Below, in pieces: positions 4,111 to 39,928 of a DNA stretch of 64,000 nt; position 1 is the first letter of the stretch; every line of letters begins with the position of its first letter. Origin of the DNA: Clostridia bacterium (GTDB taxonomy: Bacteria > Bacillota > Clostridia > Oscillospirales > Acutalibacteraceae); assembly GCA_017516745.1 (NCBI GenBank), contig JAFXBF010000001.1:1-64000 (forward strand), given 5' to 3'. Below the pieces are notes generated by a model. That model was not told where the DNA came from, ran no database searches, and saw nothing but the letters and a program-made list of their open reading frames with translations. The translations under genes were made by a program, and so were the position numbers.

Positions 4111-4292
4111 TTGATTAAAAGGTGAAGTTTTCACTTGCCTTTATGCAAACTTAGTTTATTTGCACGTAACGTTTACCGTATTGGTTTCGTTGGCTGCGGA
4201 GAATTTGGACTTCATTGCCGCATTGTAATGAATGGTATTGTAACAACAAAGTAAAAATAATCAATACCGTCACAGAGCTTTCTTGCTGATGC
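4111..4292. other. Gene-free stretch with a possible gene remnant on the minus strand
   Basis: About 180 bases without an intact gene. Minus strand 4156-4250 reads open for about 30 codons ending in TAA (…YNTIHYNAAMKSKFSAAN…), with coding-like composition but no start signal. It may be a decayed gene end. Nothing else is visible before the promoter at 4293. Confidence 0.3.
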
Positions 4293-4321
4293 TTGACAAA
4301 AATTGTACTTGAGTATATTAT
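4293..4321 (+). promoter_or_regulatory. Strong sigma-A promoter of the thioester surface protein
   Basis: Perfect TTGACA (4293-4298), 17-bp spacer, TATTAT (4316-4321), about 55 bases before the start codon. One of the best consensus promoters in the window. Confidence 0.75.
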
Positions 4322-4377
4322 TTATCTAATTATATATAGATTTATCCCTAAAAATATTAAATGGGAGCAGATTAATT

Positions 4378-6453
4378 ATGAAAAAATTCATTTCGGTTCT
4401 GGCTGTAACTTTATCGTTGATGCTTTTGCTGTCAATGGCGGCTTTCTCTACTTCCGACAGCATAACCGCAATGGGCTCGGGCTTCAGCAACGTTGCGTTT
4501 TCAAACGGCTATTACGGTTTCTGTATCGACCAGAATCTGTCGGGTGCATATTCCGGCGACGCCTTCTCAGTTGCAGACAACACAAGCGTTGCAACCCACA
4601 ACAAAACGCATGTTGATGTTTCACAGAAACTGAAAATTCTGTTTACTCAGTTTTTTGAGGATTTCTTTGTTTCTGACGGCAACGGCGGTTATGTTATGGA
4701 CAGCCTTAAGGCGGACTCTACGGTACAGACAGTTGTGTGGAACCTTACGGACGACCGTTACATCTGGGGCGAGAGCAAGAATATTGTCGACGCAATAAAC
4801 AGTTATACCGGCCCCGAAATTCCCGATGAGGGCTATGCCCGTATGCTTGATAACGGCGATGTAATCACATTCTACTTTATGGTTATCGAGCCTCAGAACA
4901 ACAAGGATCAGCAGTCATTCTTTGCCTATAAAATCACAGTAGGTCAGCAGACTCCCCACGAGCACAGCTACAGCGATAAATGGTCAAGCAACGAAACAGA
5001 ACACTGGCACGAATGTGCTTGCGGCGACAAGAAGGATGTTGCAGAACATGAAGGCAACACACCTGATTGTGTAAATCCGTCAATCTGCGAAGAATGTAAA
5101 AATCAGCTTTCTGGCGTAGATAAAGAAAACCACACAGGCGGCACAGTAATCAAGAACGAGAAGCCTGCACAGGAATTCGAAGAAGGCTACAGCGGTGACA
5201 TTCACTGCGCAGGCTGTGACGAGCTTCTTGAAAAGGGTGAAGTTCTTCCTGCAACACATCAGCACGACCACAGCGACAAATGGTCGAGCAACGAAACAGA
5301 GCACTGGCACGAATGTGCTTGCGGCGATAAGAAGGATGTTGATACACACAACGGTACAACAGCCAACTGTACAACACCTTCAATCTGTGAAGAATGTAAA
5401 AAAGAACTCACAGGCGTAGATAAAAAAAACCACACAGGCGGCACAGTAATCAAGAACGAGAAGCCTGCACAGGAATTCGAAGACGGCTACAGTGGCGACA
5501 TCCACTGCGCAGGCTGTGACGAGCTCCTTGAAAAAGGCGAGGTACTCCCTGCAACTCACGAGCATAACCATAGCAAAGACTGGTCGAGCAACGAAACAGA
5601 GCATTGGCATGAGTGTCCTTGCGGTGACAAGAAGGATGTTGCAGAACATGAAGGTAACACACCTGATTGTGTAAACCCGTCAATCTGCGAAGAATGTGAA
5701 AAGCAGCTCGCTGATAAAGACAAGACAAACCATACAGGCGGAACGGTTGTGAAGAACGCAAAGGAAGCAACCTCCACAGAGGACGGCTACACGGGCGATA
5801 TTTACTGCATGGGCTGTGATACTCTGCTTGAACTCGGTTCGGTTATCCCGATGTCACACGAGCACTCCTATTCCGATGAGTGGAAGAGTGACGACAAAAA
5901 CCATTGGCACGAGTGTTCCTGTAAGGACAGAAAAGACGAGGAAGCACACAGGTTTGTGCTCGGTACCTGCAGTGTCTGCGGTAAGACCTCCTCATCTTTT
6001 GAAATCGATCCCGATGAACTGACAGATGCTGTTGGCTCAATCCTTGATACAATTATCAGTGCTGGTTCAGGTCTTGATTTCGGTGACCTTGGTTTCGGCG
6101 ATATCAATTTGGGCGACCTCGGCTTCGGTTCGGGTAACGGCAACGGCTCAAACGGCGGTTCTGATGGCAGCAACGGTACGGGTTCGGGTTCAGATAACGG
6201 TTCAAATTCAGGTTCTGCTTCCATCCCCGGTACCGACAACAGCACAAAGCCCGGTACGGATAACGGACAGAACAGCGGCAACGGAAATTCCGGCACAAAT
6301 ACCAACACAAACGGCAGCACCGTCAACAAAGACGATAACACCGTAAGCCCCGATACGGGTAACGGTTACGCTCTCGGTCTTGTAATTTCCGTAATGCTTG
6401 TAAGCACCTGCGCTCTCGCAGTAATCAAAAGAAAAGAGAGCCTTACAGCATAA
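4378..6453 (+). CDS. Cell-surface protein with thioester domain, three-plus 100-aa repeats and C-terminal wall anchor
   Basis: 691 aa. A signal peptide covers residues 1-25 (MKKFISVLAV…LLLSMAAFST). Residues 30-190 fit a Gram-positive thioester domain: Cys49 in YGFCI matches the [YFL]-C-hydrophobic box and Gln117 in VQTVVWNLTD matches the hydrophobic-Q-x-x-hydrophobic-W box. In known adhesins these two side chains form an intramolecular thioester that can bind host proteins covalently. From residue 194 come tandem 100-aa Cys/His-rich repeats (NETEHWHECACG … CEEC … CAGCDELL), three full and one partial. A Gly/Ser/Asn-rich linker follows (about 565-650), then SPDTG (657-661), a hydrophobic helix and a Lys/Arg tail. 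This is a sortase-type sorting signal, though SPDTG departs from LPxTG. Strong own promoter and terminator. Function as adhesin is inferred. Confidence 0.85.
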   Translation: MKKFISVLAVTLSLMLLLSMAAFSTSDSITAMGSGFSNVAFSNGYYGFCIDQNLSGAYSGDAFSVADNTSVATHNKTHVDVSQKLKILFTQFFEDFFVSDGNGGYVMDSLKADSTVQTVVWNLTDDRYIWGESKNIVDAINSYTGPEIPDEGYARMLDNGDVITFYFMVIEPQNNKDQQSFFAYKITVGQQTPHEHSYSDKWSSNETEHWHECACGDKKDVAEHEGNTPDCVNPSICEECKNQLSGVDKENHTGGTVIKNEKPAQEFEEGYSGDIHCAGCDELLEKGEVLPATHQHDHSDKWSSNETEHWHECACGDKKDVDTHNGTTANCTTPSICEECKKELTGVDKKNHTGGTVIKNEKPAQEFEDGYSGDIHCAGCDELLEKGEVLPATHEHNHSKDWSSNETEHWHECPCGDKKDVAEHEGNTPDCVNPSICEECEKQLADKDKTNHTGGTVVKNAKEATSTEDGYTGDIYCMGCDTLLELGSVIPMSHEHSYSDEWKSDDKNHWHECSCKDRKDEEAHRFVLGTCSVCGKTSSSFEIDPDELTDAVGSILDTIISAGSGLDFGDLGFGDINLGDLGFGSGNGNGSNGGSDGSNGTGSGSDNGSNSGSASIPGTDNSTKPGTDNGQNSGNGNSGTNTNTNGSTVNKDDNTVSPDTGNGYALGLVISVMLVSTCALAVIKRKESLTA
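4957..5970 (+). repeat. In-frame tandem repeat, exact 300-bp period
   Basis: Units start at 4957, 5257, 5557 and 5857 (the last partial). Each begins with the codons for His-Glu/Gln-His and encodes 100 residues with the same order of HWHEC, CxxC and CxGC motifs. Units one to three are nearly identical over long DNA stretches. Such identity favours recombination and copy-number change within the surface protein gene. Confidence 0.95.
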
Positions 6454-6467
6454 ATAACATTTTTTAC

Positions 6468-6501
6468 AGCGGCATACTCTTTGCGGGTGTGCCGCTTTTT
6501 T
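6468..6501 (+). terminator. Intrinsic terminator after the surface protein
   Basis: GCGGCATAC / GTGTGCCGC stem with one G-U pair and a 9-base loop, followed by TTTTTT. Confidence 0.85.
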
Positions 6502-6561
6502 AGTTTTACTCTTTTCAAATTTGTAAAGATATGTTACTATTATTTGCAGAGGTGATTTTTT

Positions 6562-7926
6562 ATGGCAAAAAACAATAACCCTAAAATAAAAATTGATTAT
6601 AACAATATGGACGGCTTTAACAGCTACCCGTCGGACCTTATGAAGGAATACGTTCAGTCGTTTGAAGAGGGACTTGATGTTGAAAAATATAAGCCTCTCT
6701 TTGAGTCTGTTTCAAAGCTCGATAACGGCGAATATAAAACGAGAATGTCTGACGTGCTTTTTGATGTTGTGCTTAACGCCGATATGCGAAAGGATTATAA
6801 ATACAATGAGCCCAATGACCTTGACGAAATAAAAGCTCTTTGCAAGCCGCACAGCTTTGAGTCAGCTAAGCCCGACGAGGATACGCTGCGTAAAAAGCTT
6901 CTCGGTGCGTGGACGGGCAGAGCCTGCGGCTGTCTGCTGGGTAAACCGGTTGAGGGTATCCGCAGTAATGAGCTTATTCCCTTGCTTAAAGAAACAGGCA
7001 ATTATCCTATGCACAGGTACATTTTAAGCACCGATATCACCAATGAGGTCTGCTCGCATTACAAATTCTGGCTTCGCAATAAGTGCTATGCCGATACGGT
7101 GGACGGTATGCCCGTTGACGATGACACAAACTACGTCGTTATGGCTCAGAAGTTAATTGAAGAATACGACAGGGATTTTGAGTCGGAGGACGTAGCTTCA
7201 ATGTGGCTTAAAAGCCAGTCTGTCCACTCTTACTTTACCGCTGAAAGAACTGCTTATATCAACTTTATCAACTGCATTGTGCCGCCCTCGTCTGCAATGT
7301 ATAAAAACGTTGCCCGTGAGTGGATAGGCGCACAGATTAGAGGTGACTACTTCGGCTATATCAACCCCGGCAAGCCCGGGGAAGCAGCGGAAATGGCATA
7401 TAAGGATGCAAGAATATCCCACACGAAAAACGGCATTTACGGCGAAATGTTTGCTTCGGCTATGCTTGCCACGGCCGCAGTTGCGGATAGTATCGAAGAT
7501 ATAATTATGGGCGGTCTTGCGCAGATTCCGCAGACCTCACGTCTTTATGAGGCTGTTACGGGTATTATGGACGGCTGCAAAAACGGTGTTACCGTTGATG
7601 AATGTTTCGATATCATTCATAAGGCGTATGACGAGCACACCGACCACGGCTGGTGTCACACAATTCCCAACGCTATGATTGTTACTGCTGCACTTTTATA
7701 CGGTGAGGGGGATTTCGGTAAATCAATCTGTATTGCCGTAGGTATGGCTTTCGATACGGACTGTAACGGCGCAACGGTAGGCTCAATTCTCGGTATGCGC
7801 AACACAATTGACGGTATTGACGAATACTGGAAAAAGCCGATTAACGGCAAAATCCATACCTCGCTTTTCGGCTCGGAAACGGTCGATATCGAAAAAGCTG
7901 TCGAATTAACTATGGAACATATATAA
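6562..7926 (+). CDS. ADP-ribosylglycohydrolase-family protein with N-terminal extension
   Basis: 454 aa. The catalytic fold begins near residue 110 (KKLLGAWTGRACGCLLGKPV), the usual N-terminal signature of the DraG/ARH family. The magnesium-binding acidic sites are present as Asp186-Asp187-Asp188-Thr189 (PVDDDTN) and, near the C-terminus, 'AFDTDCNGAT'. The family hydrolyses N- or O-glycosidic bonds to ADP-ribose, but many gut-bacterial members sit in carbohydrate clusters with unknown substrates. The first 105 residues are an unassigned extension. The gene lies 65 bases before a GPH sugar symporter and upstream of an alpha-galactosidase, so a role on a glycoside is plausible but inferred. RBS GAGGTGA precedes the ATG. 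Confidence 0.85.
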   Translation: MAKNNNPKIKIDYNNMDGFNSYPSDLMKEYVQSFEEGLDVEKYKPLFESVSKLDNGEYKTRMSDVLFDVVLNADMRKDYKYNEPNDLDEIKALCKPHSFESAKPDEDTLRKKLLGAWTGRACGCLLGKPVEGIRSNELIPLLKETGNYPMHRYILSTDITNEVCSHYKFWLRNKCYADTVDGMPVDDDTNYVVMAQKLIEEYDRDFESEDVASMWLKSQSVHSYFTAERTAYINFINCIVPPSSAMYKNVAREWIGAQIRGDYFGYINPGKPGEAAEMAYKDARISHTKNGIYGEMFASAMLATAAVADSIEDIIMGGLAQIPQTSRLYEAVTGIMDGCKNGVTVDECFDIIHKAYDEHTDHGWCHTIPNAMIVTAALLYGEGDFGKSICIAVGMAFDTDCNGATVGSILGMRNTIDGIDEYWKKPINGKIHTSLFGSETVDIEKAVELTMEHI

Positions 7927-7932
7927 TTATGC

Positions 7933-7961
7933 TTGTAAAATCTTTTGTGTTATGGTATAAT
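7933..7961 (+). promoter_or_regulatory. Promoter of the GPH symporter gene
   Basis: TTGTAA (7933-7938), 17-bp spacer, perfect TATAAT (7956-7961), about 30 bases before the GTG start. Confidence 0.7.
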
Positions 7962-7991
7962 CAATAAATCAACTTAACGGAGGTATATGCG

Positions 7992-9587
7992 GTGAATTCT
8001 TCTTTTCTTCACAAGCTCTTCGGCACAACTCCCGGTAAGGGTGTTCAGCCCGGAGAAGCAATTGCGTACAGCGTTGCCGGCTTTGGTCAGAACTTTATCT
8101 GTACCATTATCGGCTCGTACATCACAGTATTTATGACAGACGCTCTTCTCTTCGGTGCGGAGGGCGTTCAAATAGGTCACATCAGCGGTGCGGTAGCTGT
8201 TGCTATCCTTATGCTTGCTGCCCGTGTTTTCGACGCTTTTAATGACCCGATTATGGGCAGCGTTGTTGACAAAACCCGTACAAAGTGGGGCAAGTGCCGC
8301 CCTTATCTTAAGTGGATGGCTATTCCCATTGCAATTTCAACAATTCTGTGCTTCCTTCCCGTTTTCAGCGCAGAGTCTGTTTATGACGGCTCCAAAACAA
8401 CACAGACCTTTGTCACAATAGCAGTTCTTTATGTTGTCTGGTCAGTTCTTTACACAATTGCAGACGTTCCTTATTGGGGACTTTCAACCTGCCTTACTAA
8501 CGACACAACTGTCCGTGGTAACATTCTTACGGTTGCCCGTATGTTCTGTACAGTCGGTGCCGGTATTGTTACCGTTTTCGTTCCTATGATAACCGGCGCA
8601 GTAACAGCCAAGTTCAAATACACGGTTGACGATATTGCCGCTATTATGCAGGACAAGGCAGAGGCTATTGCCAATATGGTTGCCAACCAGGGCATTACCG
8701 CTCAAGAAGCCGCAAATACATTCGTCGGCACGGTTATTAAGGGTCAGGAAATTGCAAACGCAGATACCCTCAAAATCGTTTACTTTATCTGTGCTGTTGT
8801 TCTTGTTGTTTCCGCTATTCCGATGTTCTTCTACGGCTTCAAGAACACAAAAGAAAGATTCACTTCAGACGATAATCCGCCCTCATTCGGTCACAACCTC
8901 AAGCTCCTCTTCAGAAACAAAGAGCTTCTTCTTATCGTTCTTTCCGGCGTTCTCGGCGGTGCAAGAATGGTTTACTCCTACACGGGTGGTCTCTACTTCG
9001 CAAAGTACATCCTTCAGAATGAAGGCCTTTACGGTGTAATCACCCTTCTTGTTGTTCCCGGCGGTCTTGTTGCTTCTCTTCTCGTTCCGTGGATGTCCAA
9101 GAAATTCACAAAGAAATGGTCATATATCGTTGTACACCTCTTCGGCGGCGTAGTTATGGCTATAATGTATTTCGTCGGCTACGACGCACCGTGGAAGATT
9201 GCAATCTGTGCAGTCGGTCTTGTTCTCCTCGGTATTCCCCAGGGTGTCAACAACATTATCACCTACGCTATGATTGGTGATACCGTTGACTACCTCGAGT
9301 GGAAAACAGGCGAGAGAGGCGAGGGCATCTGCTTTGCAATGCAGACCCTTATCAACAAAATCGGTATGGCTGTCGGTGCATTCATCGGCGTTATGGCTCT
9401 GAGCATTGCACAGATTGATACCAAAACATACACCGTCGGCAATGCCGATGCACTCTGGAACGTTCTTATCCTTTCCGGTGTTATCAGTATGTTTGCCTGC
9501 GCAGTTCCGATGTTCTTCTACACTATCACAGAAAAGCGCCAGCGTGAAATGGTTGCTGAAATCGAAGCACGCAAAGCAAAGAAATAA
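7992..9587 (+). CDS. GPH-family (MelB-type) sugar:cation symporter
   Basis: 531 aa, major facilitator superfamily, glycoside-pentoside-hexuronide branch. About twelve hydrophobic helices are visible. The motif 'RVFDAFNDPIMGSVVDKT' (near residue 75) is the family's diagnostic helix-2/loop signature, with its Asp residues used in cation coupling, and 'SYTGGLYFAKYIL' belongs to the second half. An inserted soluble stretch near residues 205-255 (AAIMQDKAEAIANMVANQG) is larger than in MelB and is a helical loop common to clostridial members. It should import a sugar or glycoside with Na+ or H+. GTG start is set by ACGGAGG eight bases upstream. Convergent with the GH27 alpha-galactosidase, which suggests galactosides among the substrates (inference). 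Confidence 0.9.
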   Translation: MNSSFLHKLFGTTPGKGVQPGEAIAYSVAGFGQNFICTIIGSYITVFMTDALLFGAEGVQIGHISGAVAVAILMLAARVFDAFNDPIMGSVVDKTRTKWGKCRPYLKWMAIPIAISTILCFLPVFSAESVYDGSKTTQTFVTIAVLYVVWSVLYTIADVPYWGLSTCLTNDTTVRGNILTVARMFCTVGAGIVTVFVPMITGAVTAKFKYTVDDIAAIMQDKAEAIANMVANQGITAQEAANTFVGTVIKGQEIANADTLKIVYFICAVVLVVSAIPMFFYGFKNTKERFTSDDNPPSFGHNLKLLFRNKELLLIVLSGVLGGARMVYSYTGGLYFAKYILQNEGLYGVITLLVVPGGLVASLLVPWMSKKFTKKWSYIVVHLFGGVVMAIMYFVGYDAPWKIAICAVGLVLLGIPQGVNNIITYAMIGDTVDYLEWKTGERGEGICFAMQTLINKIGMAVGAFIGVMALSIAQIDTKTYTVGNADALWNVLILSGVISMFACAVPMFFYTITEKRQREMVAEIEARKAKK

Positions 9588-9603
9588 GATTTTACAAATA
9601 ATT

Positions 9604-9640
9604 ACAGCCTCGGGTGTTGCTCACACCTGAGGCTGTTTTA
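9604..9640. terminator. Bidirectional terminator between symporter and GH27
   Basis: A 14-bp stem, ACAGCCTCGGGTGT / ACACCTGAGGCTGT, with a 5-base loop and TTTT on the plus side. It stands between two convergent genes. Confidence 0.85.
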
Positions 9641-9650
9641 TGTACGAGTG

Positions 9651-10958
9651 TTATTTCAAAGTAATCTTGAAAAGTCTTGCGCCGTGGGAATTTACCTTTG
9701 CGGAAAACTCACCGCAGGTAACGGTATATTCCTCGTGTGCCCACATATCCCACACGCTGTATTCGGTACCGCCTACAGCAATATCGGAAATATCAAAGCT
9801 GATCTCTCTTTCCTTATCATCGGTGTTGAAAAGCGCAACGTATTTGCAGTTCTCACCCTTTGATGTCCAGACTATTTCACCTTTACCGTCGGTTTCCTCA
9901 CGCCTGAACTGCCTTGCACCGCTTGAATTTTTGAGCATATCAATAAGCTCTCTGTTCTGCAGCAGCGAAAGCGTGAATTCGTCGTTTTCACGCATTTCGG
10001 CGCCAATCATGAGCGGCGAGCGGAAAATGCCCCAAAGAGTCATCATTGTTATCTGTTCATCGTGCGTGAAACGGGTGTAGCGGTTGCGGTATTCGGGCAG
10101 CTTTTCGGTTTTCTGAATTCTGCCGATAGGCAGCATATCGCAGTCGGGCCAGGCACCGGGCTGAACATATTCCTGCCAGGCGTAGCAGCGTTCAAACATT
10201 GCGTGAAGCTTAGGCCACTCGTCCCAGAAATCACCCGTCATACGCCACATATTTGCGTTGGCCGCAAGGTGCTCGTGCTCACAAACGGGAGCAGGACCGG
10301 GGGAGAGGCTGAGCACCATATCTCTGCCGCATTTGTCAATTGCCTTGCGCAGCATTTCAATTTCTTTTCTTGCCGAATAGGGGTTGTGGGGGTAAATCTC
10401 CGTGTTGGCAATATCGTCGCATTTAATATAGTCAACACCCCACGAAGCATACAGCTCAAATATCGAATTGTAATATTCCTGTGCGCCTTTTTTCTCTGTT
10501 TCAAGGCCGTACATATCGGGGTTCCACAAACAAACGGAAGACGGCTTTGCAATATCCCGTGCCGTAACGCCTTCACACTTGATTTTTGTGTTGCGGTGTG
10601 CCGCCTGTCTCGGAATACCCCTCATAATGTGAATACCGAATTTAAGACCGAGAGAATGGATATAATCTGCTATCGGTTTGAAGCCCTTGCCGCCTGCGGA
10701 GGAGGGGAAACGCTCAACCGATGGGATAAGACGGGAGTATTCGTCCATACAAAGCTCGGCAAAATAGTGGTAATAAAAGCTGTCTGCGGTAGGCTCTGAC
10801 CACTGAATGTCACAAACGACATATTCCCAGCCGTAGTCCTTCAAGTGTTTCGCCATATAATCGGCATTTGCCAAAAGCTGTTCCTCGTTGACAGCCGCAC
10901 CGTAGCAGTCCCAGCTGTTCCAGCCCATAGGCGGAGTAGGAGCAAGTTTCTTGTGCAT
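9651..10958 (-). CDS. GH27 alpha-galactosidase-like glycoside hydrolase
   Basis: 435 aa, no signal peptide, so probably cytoplasmic. The N-terminal PPMGWNSWDCYG is the hallmark of GH27/GH36-type alpha-galactosidases. The nucleophile strand is 'GVDYIKCDDIA' (first Asp of CDD) and the acid/base Asp is likely in 'RMTGDFWDEW'. 'LSLSPGP' and the SPLMIGAE loop are also family-typical. A C-terminal beta-sandwich (about 340-435) closes the protein, as in family members. It would release terminal alpha-galactose from oligosaccharides such as melibiose or raffinose. RBS AAAGGACT lies ahead of the ATG. Convergent with the GPH symporter, a plausible uptake partner. Related GH27 members can have other specificities (beta-L-arabinopyranosidase, isomalto-dextranase). 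Confidence 0.9.
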   Translation of the reverse strand: MHKKLAPTPPMGWNSWDCYGAAVNEEQLLANADYMAKHLKDYGWEYVVCDIQWSEPTADSFYYHYFAELCMDEYSRLIPSVERFPSSAGGKGFKPIADYIHSLGLKFGIHIMRGIPRQAAHRNTKIKCEGVTARDIAKPSSVCLWNPDMYGLETEKKGAQEYYNSIFELYASWGVDYIKCDDIANTEIYPHNPYSARKEIEMLRKAIDKCGRDMVLSLSPGPAPVCEHEHLAANANMWRMTGDFWDEWPKLHAMFERCYAWQEYVQPGAWPDCDMLPIGRIQKTEKLPEYRNRYTRFTHDEQITMMTLWGIFRSPLMIGAEMRENDEFTLSLLQNRELIDMLKNSSGARQFRREETDGKGEIVWTSKGENCKYVALFNTDDKEREISFDISDIAVGGTEYSVWDMWAHEEYTVTCGEFSAKVNSHGARLFKITLK

Positions 10959-32484: not shown

Positions 32485-32549
32485 TACGGATGAATAGTAT
32501 GCGTTGGTAGAACTATCGGCGTGTATAAATTTTTAAGGAGATGAAAACA

Positions 32550-35513
32550 GTGAAGTCCACCAAAAGAATTCTCTCAGCAATTCTCTCTGTGATTATGATT
32601 CTCGGCTGCCTTACAGTCGGTTTCACAGCACAGGCAAGTGCTTCCGACCTCGTCAAGGCTGTCGCTAACGGCGGCAAAGTTGATTGGACCGGCGGCAACG
32701 TAACACTCGCAGACACACTTGTTATCAACAAGGATGTCGAAATTGACTTCAACGGCGCTGTTATTACAGGTCCTGCCGGCAAAGTCGCAATCCGTGTTGA
32801 CGGCGGTAACGTTACTCTTTACGACGGCGTAGTTCTCGCTGACCAGGGTAGCTACAGCGGCGAAACAGGCTTTGTTAAGGCTCTTATGAACTACAAGCCT
32901 GCTATTTCCATCAACGACGGTGACGTAGAACTCAACTGCATCACAGCAGTAGGTTCTCTCCTTCGTATCCCCAACAGCAGTACAATCGAAGTTCCGATCG
33001 GTAACGGTATCAACGCTAACGACGGTACAGTTGTTCTCGACAACGTTATCGCTATCGGTATGAAGGCTCTCGACAACACCAAGGCTGACGTTACTGTTAA
33101 GGATGCTATCCTTGCAGGTATCTATAAGGCTGTCAACATCTACAAGGCTGTTGACTTCGGTGCTAACTACGAGCAGTACGAGACAGTTGAGCTCCTCGAA
33201 GGCTTCCTTAAGGACGGCGTAAACCTTTCCGCTAACGAGAAGAAGTACATCGCTTCCGCTACAAACAGCCAGGGCGATTTCTCTGTAGGCAGCGTAATCG
33301 TTAACGTTGAAAAGCCCGTATTCACACAGCCCGAAACAACATTTGTCGGTGGCAAGCTCAACGTTATTGCTAATGTCGAGCCCTTTGAGCACGAAGGCGT
33401 TTCCAACAGATACTCCTACTCCTACACTCCCGACTACGCTGTAATCGGCGAAGATGAGCAGGCTTTCACAGCTGACGGTGTTCAGTATGTTGCTTCCTTC
33501 GCAGGTCTCACAGAAGGCGAAGAGTACGATGTAACAGTTAACTACGACCTTTCCATCAAGCTCGGCAAGAAGCAGAAGGAAATCGTAGAAAAGGCATTCG
33601 ATATCCTTGCTCACTATATTGACAAGGCTCCCGAACTCCTCAACCGTTTTGTTGTAGATTTCGATAACCTTTACGAGAAGGCTGAAAACCTTGTAGCAAT
33701 GCTTTACAATGCTTACTTCAGCACCGAACCGATGGTTAAAGAACAGATTGCAAAGATTGCTGACATTAAAGAAGTTATCGGTCTTATCTATGCTCTTGAA
33801 GGCCAGGAGTTTAACGGTTCTGCAGCAGTTGACGGTAAAGAAGAAATTCTTAACAACGGTCTTGTAGCAACCTACGCTTCCATGTCCGGTTCTTATCTCA
33901 AGTATGATTACAGCACAGTTGAAGCAGCTGCCAAGATGTTTGTTGACAGCGCAAAGGCTTCTATGGTAAACAATTACGGTGCAATCTTTGATACCAACGA
34001 TGACGGTATCGCTGACTCCGTTTTCGCATACTTCAACAATGATACATTTGAGAAGGCTGCTTCCTTCGACGAAAGTGGATTTGCAAAGGGTACACCCGGC
34101 TACGGTTCTGGTGTAGGTCTTCTCGATGTATTTGATAATTACTACAAGGAAATCAAGAATCTCGTTTACGGCAACAGCACAACAGAGTTCAACGACCTTG
34201 GCGCAGCAGCTGAGTATGTCGGTGACAACTGGGTAGGTCTTCTTGAGCTTGTTGAAAACGCAGTAGTTGTTCTCGATAAGGCTTATGATATCGTTAACGG
34301 CGATAGCTTCAAGCAGCTTCTTGATGTTGTAAATATGGGTGGCTTTGCTTCCTATGTAAATGCATTCAACACAGCTTACAAGTACCTTGATAAGGTTATG
34401 AGCAGAGTTGATGACTTCAAGGCTTCTTCCTTCTTCAACACCTTCATCGCTGATCCTCAGAAGGCCGGCGATTACTGCAAGAGATACACTCTCAAGGTTT
34501 GGGATATCGCTAACAACCCCACAAAGTACTTCGGTGAAATCCCCGTAAACGGTGACTATGTAACAGTTGACCTTCTCGACGAAGACCTCAACGCAACATT
34601 CACAGTTTCCACAGAAGCTAAGCCTGTTAATGTTAAGGTTACAGTATCCGGTATGGGTGCTGCTCAGCTTAACGAAATTGATGCTGCTAACAGCTACAAC
34701 GAGTGGTTTGCATATGGTAAGGATATTACAGTTAAGCCTGTAGAGACTTACGAAGGTGCAGCATTCAAGTATATGGTTGTTAAGTCAAACGGCAACCAGA
34801 CTGTTGTTGACGGTGGTGTATTTACAGCTAAGGCTGCTACTAACCTTGAAATCGTTCTTGTGTTTGAGCCTACTGTTGCAGAATCTGCTAAAACAGAAGT
34901 TGTCTTTATGACTGACAAGGCTCTTAACTACAAGTATATCGATATGGTTTCTGTTTCTTCCGACAGCATAGCTGATGAGTGGCTTGATTATGTTGAAGAC
35001 ATCGCTGCTCCCAAGTTTGTTGACCTTACATTCAACGGTTGGTCATTGAACAAGGATGGCGCTGCTGCCGATAAGGATATCGCTAACCTTGCTGATGAAG
35101 TTGAAGCTGTAAACTCTGATTTCGTAATTGTTTACGCTTCTTACACTTATAAAGAGCAGGTTGAGGTTGAAACTCAGACTGAAGTTATCAAGATGACCAA
35201 CTATGAGGTTATTGACGGTAAGGGTTACTTTGAGGTTAACATTCAGCTTAAGGGTGCAAAGGCAATCGAAGCAGGTATCATCCTTACAATGACAGAGAGC
35301 TTTGCAACTGAAGATACAATGAAGATTAATCTTTCCGGTACTCCCGGCGTTATCTTCGCTCGTACATCTAAGGTTGATGCAAACGGTTATGTAAATCAGA
35401 ACGTTCAGTATACAGCAGGTGTTAATGCTTCCGGCACAGTTTATGCACGTGGTTATGTTGTATATGAAGACGGTACTGCTGAATATACAAATATCGTTTC
35501 TCTCGATATCTGA
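32550..35513 (+). CDS. Large secreted protein, probably highly expressed; function unknown
   Basis: 987 aa from GTG 32550: AAGGAG directly touches ATG 32541, leaving no spacing, but sits nine bases from the GTG. A clear signal peptide is seen (STKRILSAILSVIMILG, cleavage near ASA-SD). Residues 30-190 show short strand repeats like a right-handed beta-helix (LVINKDVEIDFNGAVI, VDGGNVTLYDGVV, ANDGTVVLDNVIA). The remainder is mixed, with a helical central part (about 340-600) and beta-rich C-terminal modules, ending without a wall anchor. Codon choice is strongly biased (GCT, AAC, CTC, GAC) compared with neighbours, which suggests very high expression. Its stop is only 43 bases ahead of the 52-aa peptide gene. 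Possibly a surface-layer or matrix protein (inference). Confidence 0.75.
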   Translation: MKSTKRILSAILSVIMILGCLTVGFTAQASASDLVKAVANGGKVDWTGGNVTLADTLVINKDVEIDFNGAVITGPAGKVAIRVDGGNVTLYDGVVLADQGSYSGETGFVKALMNYKPAISINDGDVELNCITAVGSLLRIPNSSTIEVPIGNGINANDGTVVLDNVIAIGMKALDNTKADVTVKDAILAGIYKAVNIYKAVDFGANYEQYETVELLEGFLKDGVNLSANEKKYIASATNSQGDFSVGSVIVNVEKPVFTQPETTFVGGKLNVIANVEPFEHEGVSNRYSYSYTPDYAVIGEDEQAFTADGVQYVASFAGLTEGEEYDVTVNYDLSIKLGKKQKEIVEKAFDILAHYIDKAPELLNRFVVDFDNLYEKAENLVAMLYNAYFSTEPMVKEQIAKIADIKEVIGLIYALEGQEFNGSAAVDGKEEILNNGLVATYASMSGSYLKYDYSTVEAAAKMFVDSAKASMVNNYGAIFDTNDDGIADSVFAYFNNDTFEKAASFDESGFAKGTPGYGSGVGLLDVFDNYYKEIKNLVYGNSTTEFNDLGAAAEYVGDNWVGLLELVENAVVVLDKAYDIVNGDSFKQLLDVVNMGGFASYVNAFNTAYKYLDKVMSRVDDFKASSFFNTFIADPQKAGDYCKRYTLKVWDIANNPTKYFGEIPVNGDYVTVDLLDEDLNATFTVSTEAKPVNVKVTVSGMGAAQLNEIDAANSYNEWFAYGKDITVKPVETYEGAAFKYMVVKSNGNQTVVDGGVFTAKAATNLEIVLVFEPTVAESAKTEVVFMTDKALNYKYIDMVSVSSDSIADEWLDYVEDIAAPKFVDLTFNGWSLNKDGAAADKDIANLADEVEAVNSDFVIVYASYTYKEQVEVETQTEVIKMTNYEVIDGKGYFEVNIQLKGAKAIEAGIILTMTESFATEDTMKINLSGTPGVIFARTSKVDANGYVNQNVQYTAGVNASGTVYARGYVVYEDGTAEYTNIVSLDI

Positions 35514-35556
35514 TTTAGTAGAAATTTAAGCTTTTTGAAAAGGAGGTTATTTACCG

Positions 35557-35715
35557 ATGAAACTTTACAATAAGCCCGAACTCAATGTTGAAAAGTTTGA
35601 TGTTGAAGATGTTATTACAGTTTCTGCAGATGCAGATGCTGGTGATTTCGATTTCGCTACCAGTCAGTCCGCAGGCATGGAGTTTGACATCACTGCAGAA
35701 GGCAACGAGTTCTAA
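35557..35715 (+). CDS. 52-aa acidic peptide, candidate RiPP precursor
   Basis: Starts at ATG with a very strong AAAAGGAGG upstream. The N-terminus MKLYNKPELNVEKFDVEDV has Tyr4-x-x-Pro7-x-Leu9, matching the Y-x-x-P-x-L leader motif that RRE/PqqD-type proteins recognise in lasso-peptide precursors. Residues 20-52 are rich in Asp, Glu, Gly, Phe, Ser and Thr, with no Cys, Lys or Arg, for example SADADAGDFDF. It carries no signal peptide. It is followed by a terminator and then by genes for an HPr-kinase-like protein, an ABC exporter, a PqqD-like protein and a peptidase. A modified, exported peptide is the best reading, but no core boundary can be fixed. Codon bias resembles the large protein before it, pointing to high expression. 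Confidence 0.72.
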   Translation: MKLYNKPELNVEKFDVEDVITVSADADAGDFDFATSQSAGMEFDITAEGNEF

Positions 35716-35741
35716 TTTGAAATTCGCATAAGTTCTTTTCA

Positions 35742-35771
35742 GGGCAGGCAGTTATACTGCCTGCCCGTTTT
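35742..35771 (+). terminator. Terminator or attenuator between peptide and kinase genes
   Basis: An 11-bp perfect GC-rich stem, GGGCAGGCAGT / ACTGCCTGCCC, loop TAT, then GTTTTCC. Partial read-through would give much peptide mRNA and little mRNA for the processing genes, a layout usual for precursor peptides. Confidence 0.85.
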
Positions 35772-35797
35772 CCTTAAATTCACTTTCTGGAGTAACA

Positions 35798-36520
35798 ATG
35801 AAATTTTACAACATTGCCGGCGTTACTGTCGGCTACGGCTGCAAGTACCCCGAAACCGAAAAACGCAGCCGACCCTATCTTTGCAAAGAATCGGGCTATG
35901 CCGATTTTACAATTAAAATTAATTATGATGATTTTGAAGATTCGCTGCTTCGGATGCCGCTTATGACACCCGAGCTGCTTGAATATATGCGCATAGGCAG
36001 CTGTTTTTATTCTGCCTTGCTCGATTTCGGCGGTTTTATGCTTCATTCTTCCGCCGTTGTTCTTGACGGAAATGCCTACTGCTTCTCCGCTCACAGCGGT
36101 ACGGGTAAATCCACCCATACAACGCAATGGCTTGAGCATTTCAAGGACAGAAATCCTTACATTATAAATGATGATAAGCCTGCAATCAAGCTTGAGAAAG
36201 ACGGTTTTATGGTGTACGGCACACCTTTCAGTGGCAAGCACGATATCAGCGTGAATACTGCCGCACCGCTTAAAGGAATTGCCTTTATTGAGCGTGCCGA
36301 AACCAACTCAATCCGCCGCCTTGAACCCCGTGAGGTCTTTTCGCTTCTGCTTAATCAGACGGTAAGACCTAAAGACGAAGCAAAGCTTGACAGATTGTGT
36401 GAGCTTATCGACAAGCTTCTTACACAGGTACCCGTTTATCTTCTTCGCTGTAACATCAGCCACGAGGCTGCACAGTTAGCTTATGACGAAATGAGTGGTA
36501 ACAACGAAAATTCTCGATAA
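35798..36520 (+). CDS. HPr-kinase-like (HprK-fold) protein of peptide cluster
   Basis: 240 aa. The Walker A loop is 'FSAHSGTGKSTHTTQW' near residue 96-112, with the neighbouring 'YIINDDKPAIKL' strand as in HprK and its relatives. The C-terminal HprK regulatory half is absent and there is no HPr partner near, so it is a truncated-type kinase. Related small HprK-like proteins occur in lasso clusters, where some phosphorylate a Ser of the peptide. Here it may phosphorylate Ser/Thr in the 52-aa peptide (inference). RBS CTGGAG. Overlaps the ABC gene by 26 bases. Confidence 0.8.
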   Translation: MKFYNIAGVTVGYGCKYPETEKRSRPYLCKESGYADFTIKINYDDFEDSLLRMPLMTPELLEYMRIGSCFYSALLDFGGFMLHSSAVVLDGNAYCFSAHSGTGKSTHTTQWLEHFKDRNPYIINDDKPAIKLEKDGFMVYGTPFSGKHDISVNTAAPLKGIAFIERAETNSIRRLEPREVFSLLLNQTVRPKDEAKLDRLCELIDKLLTQVPVYLLRCNISHEAAQLAYDEMSGNNENSR

Positions 36521-38195
36521 ACTCAAAAGCGATAATAAGGCTGTTTTCCCTTGGCTGCTTGAGCGTGTAAAGCCGTACCGAGTCCGAATCGGCTTGCTTG
36601 TTGTGTTCAATATCATATCCTCTCTGCTTGTTGCCGTTAATGCCTATGTTTCAAAAGCGCTGATGGACACGGCGGTGTCAGGGGATAAGCAACAGCTGAC
36701 AAAAATCAGCATTGCGGTAATTGCGGTGCTTGTTTTTCAGCTGTTTCTGCGCCTTGCGCACAACCTTACGGACACACGCCTGCGCCTTGATATGGAAACA
36801 GATTTCCGCAGCTATTTTATCCGTAATCTTTTCGATAAAGACTACCTTAAAATTACATCATACCACAGCGGCGACCTTATGACCCGCCTTACAAACGATA
36901 CAAACGGTGTCATCAACGGCCTTGTTTCGATTGTTCCCAACACAGTCGGCTTTGCTCTTCGCATAGCCGTTGCTTTTGTTTCGCTGTGCTTTCTTGACAA
37001 GCGCCTTGCCTTTGCTTTCTCGGGTATAGGTCTTGCGATTTTCTTCGGCACACGCCTTTTTCGCAAATTTTTCAAGGATATGTACCATAAATCCCAGAAA
37101 GCGGAAAGTGCTGTCCGTTCATTTTCCCAGGAAATTATCACCAATCTACTTGTTGTAAGCGTTTTTGATGCGGCAGAGGATGTCACAAAAAAAGAGGACG
37201 AACTTCTCAAAGACAGCGCCGATATCCGTTGGCACAGAACGAAGATTTACTCGGGTGCGGGTGCCGTTCTTTCTCTCGGTATGAGGGGCGCATATATGCT
37301 CGTTTGTATTTTCTGCGCATTTAAACTCCTTACTAACTCCATAACCTACGGTACAATTACCGCTATTCTGCAGCTTGTCAACCAGCTTCAGACTCCCTTC
37401 CGCAACCTTTCGGGTGTTATGCCTGCTTATTATCAGTTGCTTGCTTCAAGCGAAAGAATTCTTGAAATTATCTCAATTGAGGGTGAGGAAGAAGTAAACG
37501 AAAAATGCGATGTAAGAGAATTCTATTCTTCGCTTAATTCGGTTGATTTTGACGGTATCAGCTTCAGCTACGGCAACGATGATGTTCTTGAAAACACGTC
37601 ACTTTCGCTTAAAAAAGGCGAATTTGCCGCAATTACGGGCATTTCGGGCATAGGTAAGAGCACAATGATGAAAATGATGCTCGGTGTCCTTCACCCGAGT
37701 GCAGGTACAGTGTATTTCAATACAGAAAACGGTGCGTTTGCACCGGGTAAAAAATACCGTAACCTTTTTTCCTATGTTCCTCAGGGTAATATGCTCCTTT
37801 CGGGTACGATATATGAAAACATAACCTTTATGAGCCCCGATAAAACAGAGGAGGAAATCAAAAATGCAATCCGCCTGAGCTGTTCGGAGGAATTTATCAA
37901 CGAGCTTCCCGACGGCCTTGACACCGTGATAGGTGAGAGGGGACGAGGCTTGTCTGAGGGTCAGGTGCAGCGCCTTGCAATTGCAAGAGCAATCCTGCAC
38001 GATGCACCCATTATTCTGTTTGATGAGGCTACCTCGGCTTTGGATGAAGCAACCGAAGAAAAGGTACTCAACAATATCCGCAGTATTGAGGGTATTACCT
38101 GCGTGATTGTTTCGCACAAAAAGGCTGCACTTGCTGTGTGCGATAAGGAAATCCGTATAGAAAACAAGAAATTCAACGTTATAGATTTAATGTAA
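36495..38195 (+). CDS. ABC exporter, fused permease and ATPase
   Basis: 566 aa from GTG 36495, translationally coupled to the kinase gene (26-base overlap). Six transmembrane segments lie at about residues 25-300 (type I exporter, with 'NDTNGVINGLVSIVPNTVG' as the coupling region). The ATPase follows: Walker A 'GISGIGKSTMM' near 381, Q-loop 'YVPQGN', signature 'LSEGQVQRLAIARA', Walker B 'IILFDEATSAL', H-loop 'VSHKK'. The N-terminal C39 peptidase of bacteriocin exporters is absent, so leader removal would need another enzyme, maybe the S26-like protein two genes on. It likely works as a homodimer exporting the processed peptide (inference from context). Confidence 0.88.
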   Translation: MVTTKILDKLKSDNKAVFPWLLERVKPYRVRIGLLVVFNIISSLLVAVNAYVSKALMDTAVSGDKQQLTKISIAVIAVLVFQLFLRLAHNLTDTRLRLDMETDFRSYFIRNLFDKDYLKITSYHSGDLMTRLTNDTNGVINGLVSIVPNTVGFALRIAVAFVSLCFLDKRLAFAFSGIGLAIFFGTRLFRKFFKDMYHKSQKAESAVRSFSQEIITNLLVVSVFDAAEDVTKKEDELLKDSADIRWHRTKIYSGAGAVLSLGMRGAYMLVCIFCAFKLLTNSITYGTITAILQLVNQLQTPFRNLSGVMPAYYQLLASSERILEIISIEGEEEVNEKCDVREFYSSLNSVDFDGISFSYGNDDVLENTSLSLKKGEFAAITGISGIGKSTMMKMMLGVLHPSAGTVYFNTENGAFAPGKKYRNLFSYVPQGNMLLSGTIYENITFMSPDKTEEEIKNAIRLSCSEEFINELPDGLDTVIGERGRGLSEGQVQRLAIARAILHDAPIILFDEATSALDEATEEKVLNNIRSIEGITCVIVSHKKAALAVCDKEIRIENKKFNVIDLM

Positions 38196-38213
38196 AAGAT
38201 TTAAGGTGAGCTT

Positions 38214-38474
38214 ATGAAGATTAAAGCCGGTTACAAGGTCAGAAAAATGTGCGGCAGCAGTATTGTCGTTGCGGTTGGCACGGGTGACGAGTTCAACGGT
38301 ATGATTACCCTTAACGACAGCGGCGAACTGCTCTGGTCAAGCTTAAGCGCCGGTGCTGAAATTGAAGACCTTACAGCGCTTTTGGTCGCTGAATACGGTA
38401 TAGATGAGGCAACTGCAAAGGCGGATGCCGAAGAATTTGTCGAAAAAATTAAAGGAGCAGGTTTCCTTGAGTGA
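38214..38474 (+). CDS. PqqD-like peptide-recognition (RRE) protein
   Basis: 86 aa, the size of stand-alone PqqD/RRE proteins. The PqqD pattern is visible: three short N-terminal strands with hydrophobic spacing, 'LNDSGELLWSSL', then a helix and the terminal 'DAEEFVEKIKGAGFLE' typical of PqqD C-termini. In RiPP pathways such proteins bind the precursor leader and bring it to the enzyme. This would fit the Y-x-x-P-x-L motif of the 52-aa peptide (inference). AAGGTGAG precedes the ATG. Its end overlaps the next gene by 8 bases. Confidence 0.85.
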   Translation: MKIKAGYKVRKMCGSSIVVAVGTGDEFNGMITLNDSGELLWSSLSAGAEIEDLTALLVAEYGIDEATAKADAEEFVEKIKGAGFLE

Positions 38475-38922
38475 TAAAAAAAGCCTCAGAGAGCTTGAAC
38501 CCGAATTAAGAGCAGTAATAGAGTCGGGCAGAGTTGCCGAGTTTGAAACGCACGGCTTCAGTATGATTCCGCTTCTTCACGACGGAGGCGACAGGGTGCG
38601 CCTTGTCAAACCCCGTGGTAAACTTGCCGTTGGAGATGTTGCGTTTTGTGTTACCGATACGGGCAAATATGTCCTTCACAGAGTTGTTGAACTTAAAGAT
38701 GGCGGATACGTCTTCAAAGGTGATAACTGCATCGGCACGGAATTCTGTAAGGGTGACAGTGATGTTATCGGCGTGGCCTGTGCTTTTATCCGCAGAGGCA
38801 GGCTTATTGAAACGAACTCGTTTCAATATAAGTTTTATTGCCGCTTCAGAAAGCCCATACTTCGTCTCTGGCAGCTTTTCTGGAAGATTGCCGATAAGCT
38901 CGTGACTTTGAAAAACAAATAA
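38467..38922 (+). CDS. S24/S26 signal-peptidase-like protein, Ser/His type
   Basis: 151 aa. Start TTG 38467 is supported by AAAGGAG nine bases upstream; it overlaps the PqqD-like gene by 8 bases. The nucleophile box 'HGFSMIPLLHDGG' has Ser32, and box 'YVLHRVVEL…YVFKGDNC' has His71 where bacterial LepB has Lys, the arrangement of ER-type Sec11/SipW signal peptidases. Unlike those, no N-terminal membrane anchor is seen. The C-terminus is basic and amphipathic (RKPILRLWQLFWKIADKLV), so it could sit on the inner membrane face. It may cleave the precursor leader before or during export (inference). Confidence 0.82.
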   Translation: MSDKKSLRELEPELRAVIESGRVAEFETHGFSMIPLLHDGGDRVRLVKPRGKLAVGDVAFCVTDTGKYVLHRVVELKDGGYVFKGDNCIGTEFCKGDSDVIGVACAFIRRGRLIETNSFQYKFYCRFRKPILRLWQLFWKIADKLVTLKNK

Positions 38923-38950
38923 ACATCTCCCTTATAAGGTGTGTTTTGTG

Positions 38951-39928
38951 ATGCTTAAAAGAATAGCAATTATACTCTTGGTAATATCTCTGCTTGCTGT
39001 TTTCTTTGCGGTGCCTGTCGAAGGACTCGATATTAAAATTGACGGACTTGCGGACGAAAAGGTTTGGCTCAACTGTCATACGCAGGTGCTTGTTTCAAAC
39101 AGGGATGATTCCAATAACGATATCTGCTTTGCCCTTGCCAATGTGCTTTATGACGAGGAAAACAACAGGGTTTATCTGTCTTTTAAGGCTAATGTCAACG
39201 GTGCGGTTTTCTATCCTTCTCAGGTAACAACCGAACCTGTACAATATCTGCACGGTGTACGGATAAATGTTGATAACTCGGGGTTTGTTGAAATATCACA
39301 CAACGGTGTGGAGCCATATAACAGCAATTTGTATTTTATTGAAGCAGCTGTTTCGGAGCATGATTCATCGGCTTTCGGTGCGGAAATATGCCTTGGTGTC
39401 AAGCTTGGCTTACATACATTGCGGAGCATTTCCGTTCAGTTCATTGACGGCAACGGAGTACCCTCAAACGCTTATATGCTTAACTTGCCTTCTTTACCGA
39501 GTGAAGAAACAACCACCGCATATCAGCCCGTTTTTGATGTAACCGAAAAAGAAACCACAACAAAGAATAATACAACCCGTATAACAACTGCAAAGCACAC
39601 AACGACCGAGAAAACAACAAAACCGGAAAAGAGAACTGTGCAAAAAACAACAGCAGTAAAAACTACAAAAGAGAAGACAACCAAACTCAGGACAACCAAG
39701 CCCAAAACCACGGCAAAGGTAGTAACGGTTTATGTCACCGTGCCTGAATACATCGAAACAACTGTAAATGAAGCAACTGTTTCTGAGGTGTCAAGCGAGC
39801 AGATTCAGCAGGAGAAAACCTATAAAGAGCTGAAATATGCAGCAGCGGCAGGTTTGCTGATTTTGATTTTCGGTCTGTGCGTAATCATAAATATGCTCAA
39901 TGACAAGAACAAGAGCAGCAAGAAATAA
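38951..39928 (+). CDS. Membrane-anchored secreted protein with Thr-rich stalk and possible CBM9-like domain
   Basis: 325 aa from ATG 38951, with AAGGTG nine bases upstream. A signal peptide covers 1-26. Residues 28-190 start with 'DIKIDGLADEKVWLNC', the pattern of CBM9/DOMON-like beta-sandwich modules, though the rest of the domain is divergent. Residues about 200-275 form a Thr/Lys-rich stalk with TTTK-type repeats, likely extended or glycosylated. A transmembrane helix follows at about 298-317 (YAAAAGLLILIFGLCVIIN) with a basic tail. Placed at the end of the peptide cluster, 28 bases behind the peptidase gene, so possibly an immunity, receptor or display protein (inference). A hairpin terminator follows. 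Confidence 0.75.
   Translation: MLKRIAIILLVISLLAVFFAVPVEGLDIKIDGLADEKVWLNCHTQVLVSNRDDSNNDICFALANVLYDEENNRVYLSFKANVNGAVFYPSQVTTEPVQYLHGVRINVDNSGFVEISHNGVEPYNSNLYFIEAAVSEHDSSAFGAEICLGVKLGLHTLRSISVQFIDGNGVPSNAYMLNLPSLPSEETTTAYQPVFDVTEKETTTKNNTTRITTAKHTTTEKTTKPEKRTVQKTTAVKTTKEKTTKLRTTKPKTTAKVVTVYVTVPEYIETTVNEATVSEVSSEQIQQEKTYKELKYAAAAGLLILIFGLCVIINMLNDKNKSSKK

Follow-up and report, generated by a model that had tools for sequence, protein, structure and literature searches.

What becomes of a peptide that carries a lasso-type leader in a gene cluster without a lasso cyclase? The question is raised by a locus on contig JAFXBF010000001.1 of a Clostridia bacterium (family Acutalibacteraceae, assembly GCA_017516745.1), of which positions 1 to 64,000, hereafter the window, were analysed. 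Five genes on its forward strand, encoding a 52-aa peptide, an HprK-like kinase, an ABC exporter, a PqqD-like protein and an S26-like peptidase, had been described in an earlier note, made from the sequence letters, as a possible distinct class of ribosomally synthesized and post-translationally modified peptide (RiPP). Judged from its sequence, the pathway is a Clostridia variant of the recently published linear polyphosphorylated peptides (LPP) and not a new class. The gene directly upstream, overlooked in that note, encodes a large secreted protein and is a recurrent kind of neighbour. The combined interpretation, namely an LPP-type RiPP pathway in Clostridia, a two-gene unit of peptide and secreted protein, and a partnership of the two products outside the cell, is in our judgement fairly probable.

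The LPP class was published in May 2026 from the lpp cluster of Paenibacillus alginolyticus (PMC13381572). This cluster encodes a precursor, the HprK-like kinase LppK, the RiPP recognition element (RRE) LppB, the SipW-like peptidase LppS, the MsbA-like exporter LppD and the nucleoside triphosphate (NTP) transferase LppN. LppK places several phosphates on Ser3 and LppS, aided by LppB, cuts behind Thr-1, with no cyclase involved; deletion of lppN left the detected products unchanged (PMC13381572).

Re-reading of the window sequence recovered the five genes and both overlaps as first described. The LppA-like precursor gene (35557-35715) is preceded by a ribosome-binding site (AAGGAGG, 35540-35546), and its 52-aa product carries YNKPELNVEKFDVEDVIT in the leader, a motif of the YxxPxL type, followed by an acidic core; the part past ...VIT is, as the note had it, acidic and free of Cys and Lys. 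A terminator-like hairpin (35742-35766) separates the peptide from the HprK-like (LppK-like) kinase with its P-loop SGTGKSTH (35798-36520). The MsbA-like (LppD-like) exporter starts with GTG and overlaps the kinase by 26 nt (36495-38195), and is followed by the stand-alone, PqqD-like (LppB-like) RRE (38214-38474) and by the SEC11/SipW-like (LppS-like) S26 peptidase, which starts with TTG and overlaps the RRE gene by 8 nt (38467-38922).

In profile searches the RRE matched PqqD (PF05402, E 1e-14) and the exporter matched ABC_membrane and ABC_tran, with MsbA as its best model (E 4e-69), yet under that model's curated cut-off. Matches of the kinase to HprK-related models (ScmC, E 1e-6) and of the peptidase to sigpep_I_arch (E 4e-5) also fell under the curated cut-offs; these two identities, weak by profiles, are supported by structure models with mean confidence values (pLDDT) of 94.6 and 94.1, respectively. 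The predicted kinase fold matches phosphoenolpyruvate carboxykinase and HprK/P (best E values 2e-6 and 7e-6, respectively), and that of the peptidase matches human SEC11A at the top (best E 2e-3) and also LexA/UmuD and SpsB, none of them at E 1e-3 or below. The P-loop residues are invariant in 43/43 aligned kinases. S31, H70 and D85 of the peptidase (150-residue numbering, with the TTG start left out) are invariant in 76/76 homologues, in agreement with the Ser/His S26-like peptidase proposed earlier; because the His-Asp spacing is 15 as against 25 in LppS (H68, D93), the assignment of the Asp rests on conservation. N34, D71 and F75 of the RRE align to N33, D70 and F74 of LppB (9x8z; a weak sequence match, E 0.27), in which N33 and D70 hold the leader Tyr (PMC13381572), and the equivalent Asn and Asp are kept in 89/94 and 83/94 of the RREs near such kinases.

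The window cluster and the LPP cluster thus have in common a YxxPx[V/L] leader, an HprK-like kinase, a discrete RRE with the Asn and Asp, a SipW-like peptidase with Ser, His and Asp, an MsbA-like exporter and the lack of a cyclase. They differ in the remainder of the leader, since of the LPP consensus YxxPxVLxHQxIxFETxxS only YxxPx[LV] is shared and HQxIxFET is missing from the window type, which instead shows F at Y+10, D-V/I-I at Y+14 to +16 and Ser at Y+19, as compared with the phosphorylated Ser of LPP at Y+18 (PMC13381572). Because this consensus is not matched, the window cluster is termed LPP-like. It also differs in that the peptide lies behind a secreted protein, that no capsule genes were recognised beside the cluster (neighbours judged by eye) and that relatives hold many unlinked peptides per genome. 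The logic put forward in the earlier note, with a leader, an RRE, a kinase, an exporter and an S26-like peptidase in place of the lasso peptidase B2, agrees with LPP, whereas the novelty it suggested does not stand, the class being already published.

The conservation of the precursor exceeds chance, as orthologous peptides precede the kinase in four other genomes of the genus (loci L034, L035, L188 and L189, those in which peptide, kinase, RRE and peptidase were found together), codon changes are mostly silent and shuffled sequences remain unmatched. Compared with L188, the window peptide shows five silent changes and one that is not in the leader (23 codons), and three and one in the last 14 codons; compared with L189, the figures are one and one in the leader and four and none in the last 14 codons. 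Among 29,208 shuffled small open reading frames (ORFs) the precursor profile had 0 matches below 0.01. A wider collection of 121 distinct peptides was obtained with a profile, A2, after removing from 132 matches eight in L157-L183 that duplicate other loci and three repeated sequences. In the 114 of these that could be anchored, Tyr stands first in 93, Pro at +3 in 89, Phe at +10 in 75, Asp at +14 in 77, Thr at +17 in 58 and Ser at +19 in 84, a conservation that is partly selected, A2 having been built from 16 precursors, all in kinase loci; the orphan peptides were found by A2. Ser23 of the window peptide (Y+19, codon 35623-35625) is on these grounds the presumed phosphorylation site, and would, at a guess, be core residue 2 if the cut falls behind T21.

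The gene of the secreted protein (990 aa, 32541-35513), with a signal peptide according to a home-made rule, ends 43 nt upstream of the peptide. Its homologues directly precede the peptide in the same four genomes of the genus, and proteins of this group, found in six early loci, stand directly before it in five (the window, L034, L035, L046 and L069). Position behind a large ORF is common in the collection as a whole: in 80 of the 121 cases an ORF of 150 aa or more on the same strand ends no further than 100 nt before the peptide. Fifty-eight of these 80 ORFs are complete and 49 of the 58 have a signal peptide under the same rule, which is generous (19% background), compared with 300/1584 of complete genes (p 1e-25) and 142/677 of those of at least 350 aa (p 2e-22). 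The proportion is 23/25 for cluster peptides and 26/33 for orphan peptides alone, and of the nine complete ORFs without a signal peptide, those of L232 and L262 seem to hide one behind a long 5' extension. In 29 new loci from outside the family, 25 of 30 peptides follow an ORF of 100 aa or more at a distance of up to 100 nt, a figure of adjacency, most of these ORFs being truncated at 1500 nt.

The two genes also appear to share their end. A terminator-like hairpin stands at most 150 nt behind the peptide in 54/82 loci, and between partner and peptide in 0/82; hairpins like that of the window are found in all four loci of the genus. The alternative that the peptide belongs to the upstream protein as one of its domains, which the earlier note had considered, was rejected, both by this placement and by the peptide's own start, ribosome-binding site and leader. 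Taken together, the adjacency suggests that peptide and secreted protein may work together, a coupling that literature searches in an open-access library lacking bioRxiv's own preprints did not bring up.

The secreted partners themselves are diverse. The 990-aa protein has no Pfam or NCBIfam match, and ten upstream partners scanned by profile are dissimilar over the greater part of their length: they comprise a subtilase that bears leucine-rich repeats, two proteins matching cohesin (one under the cut-off), one protein with no match and others with Listeria-Bacteroides, InlB-type or PARCEL repeats. Many partners end in a domain, at 35181-35510 in the window, that was detected with alignment A3 and that we read as immunoglobulin (Ig)-like, the name being our own. 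In a chosen sample this domain occurs in 17/20 peptide-positive genomes and in 0/20 counted as negative, a contrast that is partly circular, A3 having been built in part from the same positive genomes, and in which a weaker peptide (L057) is in fact present in G012, counted among the negatives. The idea that partners generally end like the peptide core was rejected, as no more than 3/78 pairs score as high as the 99th percentile of mismatched ones. The two clear cases are L256 (4496-4802) and L259 (4488-4791), in which the partner tail nearly equals the peptide tail (GWSDWWTPE[YF] and IELPII[TP]V, respectively).

Occurrence of the peptides follows that of the enzymes, at the level of the genome rather than the locus. 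Within the family, A2 peptides at E 0.01 occur in 58/250 genomes, up to 11 per genome, and a kinase match is present in 56/58 of these genomes as against 62/192 of the others, peptide-negative meaning throughout that A2 had no match at the threshold. Only 40 of the 121 peptides have kinase, RRE and peptidase genes, or two of these three, in their neighbourhood and 81 are orphans, a share that is not unbiased, since 80 regions of A2 matches, hand-picked roughly down the list with contig edges, regions already in the collection and several weak ones left out, were pooled with the kinase loci. In a class-wide draw, peptides at E 0.001 occur in 47/391 genomes, with 15 to 17 per genome in five of them (19 candidates scored). 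Leaving out G000, the genome of the window, and G020, and with 35 negatives picked stepwise through the list, the kinase is found in 44/45 positive and 9/35 negative genomes (p 2e-12), in single copy in 34 of the 44, and the peptidase in 41/45 and 9/35 (p 1e-9). The draft assemblies G381 (16 peptides) and G629 (17 peptides) have the kinase on one contig and the peptidase on another; most of the named genome records are metagenome-assembled. The best reading of these patterns is that one LPP machine may act in trans on many peptides, each being the operon partner of an exported protein.

From these observations on gene content, conservation, adjacency and co-occurrence a sequence of events can be proposed, in which we infer the steps from binding through phosphorylation, cleavage and export to action in trans and partnership, relying for function on position and co-occurrence. 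The RRE would bind the YxxPxL leader, the HprK-like kinase would phosphorylate the conserved Ser just past the DVITx motif, the SEC11/SipW-like peptidase would take off the leader and the MsbA-like pump would export a linear phosphopeptide, short and acidic. The peptide gene would come second in a two-gene unit headed by that of a large Sec-secreted protein and, since the terminator-like hairpin closes this unit before the enzymes, the two products are probably made jointly and in greater amounts than the enzymes. In relatives a single machine would serve many unlinked peptides, which often follow an exported protein of their own. Outside the cell, the exported phosphopeptide would most likely act with the upstream-encoded protein, as a bound or attached partner, a linker or an assembly factor.

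Several observations weigh against this interpretation. LppN is missing beside the window cluster; at other places in the genome PF14907 is matched twice. Sixteen of the 121 peptides have no same-strand ORF within 500 nt and 18 have one only at 101-500 nt; seven more have no upstream room at a contig end. Four adjacent ORFs without signal peptide (L235, L254, L274 and L302) resemble what we take to be housekeeping genes, and the peptide of L048, found with an earlier profile and outside the 121, follows a prolyl-tRNA synthetase. Conversely, in L043 two similar secreted proteins precede the kinase and no peptide was found. Only 23/54 matches to the Ig-like domain have a profile-detected peptide at most 400 nt behind; among 20 further domain regions, six hold a YxxP peptide that A2 missed (L311, L312, L317, L319, L320 and L321) and some of the remainder look like false domain matches. 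In the window's own genome, L304 (G000:C26, 1149-11729) encodes a secreted protein of 3526 aa that ends in this Ig-like domain and has no peptide, no same-strand ORF of 25-400 aa starting within 500 nt behind it. Core and partner C-terminal region show no co-variation once cargoes differ (17 pairs, 0.038 vs 0.051, p 0.82). Finally, the 62 family genomes that hold a kinase with no peptide detected, the lone kinases of three genus genomes described below, and the many kinase loci in which neither RRE nor peptidase was found by the search, point the same way.

Part of this evidence would suit an ordinary LPP cluster, in which the peptide stands by itself as an antimicrobial, a signal or a surface coat, and the secreted protein just happens to be common next to it in the operon. 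The lack of co-variation between core and partner speaks for it, as does the description of LPP clusters of Bacilli, which places them in capsule loci and, in the main text before the Methods, mentions no secreted partner (PMC13381572). However, peptides distant from any kinase keep their place behind signal-peptide proteins, and the hairpin follows the pair in 54/82 loci and never splits it, so that we regard this explanation as unlikely. Less likely again is that the kinase serves another substrate, with peptide, RRE and peptidase joined to it secondarily. In three of 11 genomes of the genus (G251, G253 and G255, the last on a contig of only 3.5 kb) a close homologue of the kinase stands alone, with no peptide, RRE, peptidase or exporter detected beside it and next to a B325-like secreted protein; such lone kinases may have another substrate and, as homologous loci without the peptide, tell in part against the reading of the earlier note. 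The kinase loci lacking RRE or peptidase agree with this too, but the near-complete co-occurrence of peptide and kinase across genomes, in family and class alike, argues against it.

A degenerate lasso cluster that has lost B2 and the cyclase would account for the YxxPxL leader and the kinase, both known from phosphorylated lasso pathways, and lasso PqqD models do match the RRE, under their cut-offs. Clusters of the paeninodin type share with the window the RRE, the HprK-like kinase, the exporter and a leader motif of the same type, with Trp reported for paeninodin leaders where the window has Tyr (PMC13381572). In line with the earlier note, no B2 and no full cyclase were found: PF13471 is without a match at E 0.001 in a genome that is 97% complete, and PF00733 has none in the cluster and a single 77-residue partial match genome-wide, on contig C5. 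The S26-like peptidase, in contrast, accompanies the peptide in most positive genomes of the class, and the same gene set is known as LPP, which makes a lasso remnant very improbable indeed. The LPP-like pathway coupled to secreted proteins accordingly remains the reading we prefer; the earlier note, with its interpretation supported in part, had stopped one gene short, the 990-aa secreted protein upstream being the recurrent kind of neighbour.

Downstream of the peptidase, a gene at 38939-39928 encodes a secreted protein, rich in Thr and bearing a hydrophobic segment at its C-terminus, a neighbour of the cluster within the genus; by eye, proteins resembling it adjoin the lone kinases of G251, G253 and G255. 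Other neighbours of the cluster are genes that we take, by eye, to be dnaG and rpoD upstream and sugar isomerase and oxidoreductase genes downstream. The same genome holds a second cluster, L033 (G000:C5:98000-114000, 4259-10130), inside a polysaccharide locus, with an ABC protein, PqqD, a radical S-adenosylmethionine (SAM) enzyme, a 93-aa YxxP peptide (7464-7745), a kinase, an S26-like peptidase and NTP_transf_5. It shares with the window cluster the kinase, RRE, S26-like peptidase, ABC exporter and YxxP peptide, and differs in gene order and in adding the radical SAM enzyme and the NTP_transf_5 protein; the cluster appears to be the LPP set in a radical-SAM version, and L191 and L192 have the same enzymes. 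The contig of the window carries another YxxP peptide (G000:C15:83637-83800; L156, 19487-19801), apparently alone: the 500 nt upstream hold no same-strand ORF of 150 aa or more, and neither a kinase nor an RRE or peptidase was found in its vicinity.

RiPP precursors usually adjoin their own enzymes; here many do not, and are tied instead to secreted proteins, and it is this coupling of dispersed precursors to secreted proteins that is surprising. More tentatively, and as a possibility that falls a little short of probable, a single RRE, kinase and peptidase machine may act in trans throughout the class Clostridia, each dispersed precursor being dedicated to a different exported protein encoded in its operon, so that extracellular proteins such as subtilases and cohesin- or repeat-bearing surface proteins would each receive a processed phosphopeptide of their own, which might serve in anchoring, in assembly or in binding to surface polymers. 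If true, the LPP family would gain a testable role, many short ORFs in such bacteria would be explained, and a natural-product pathway would become a general way of equipping exported proteins.

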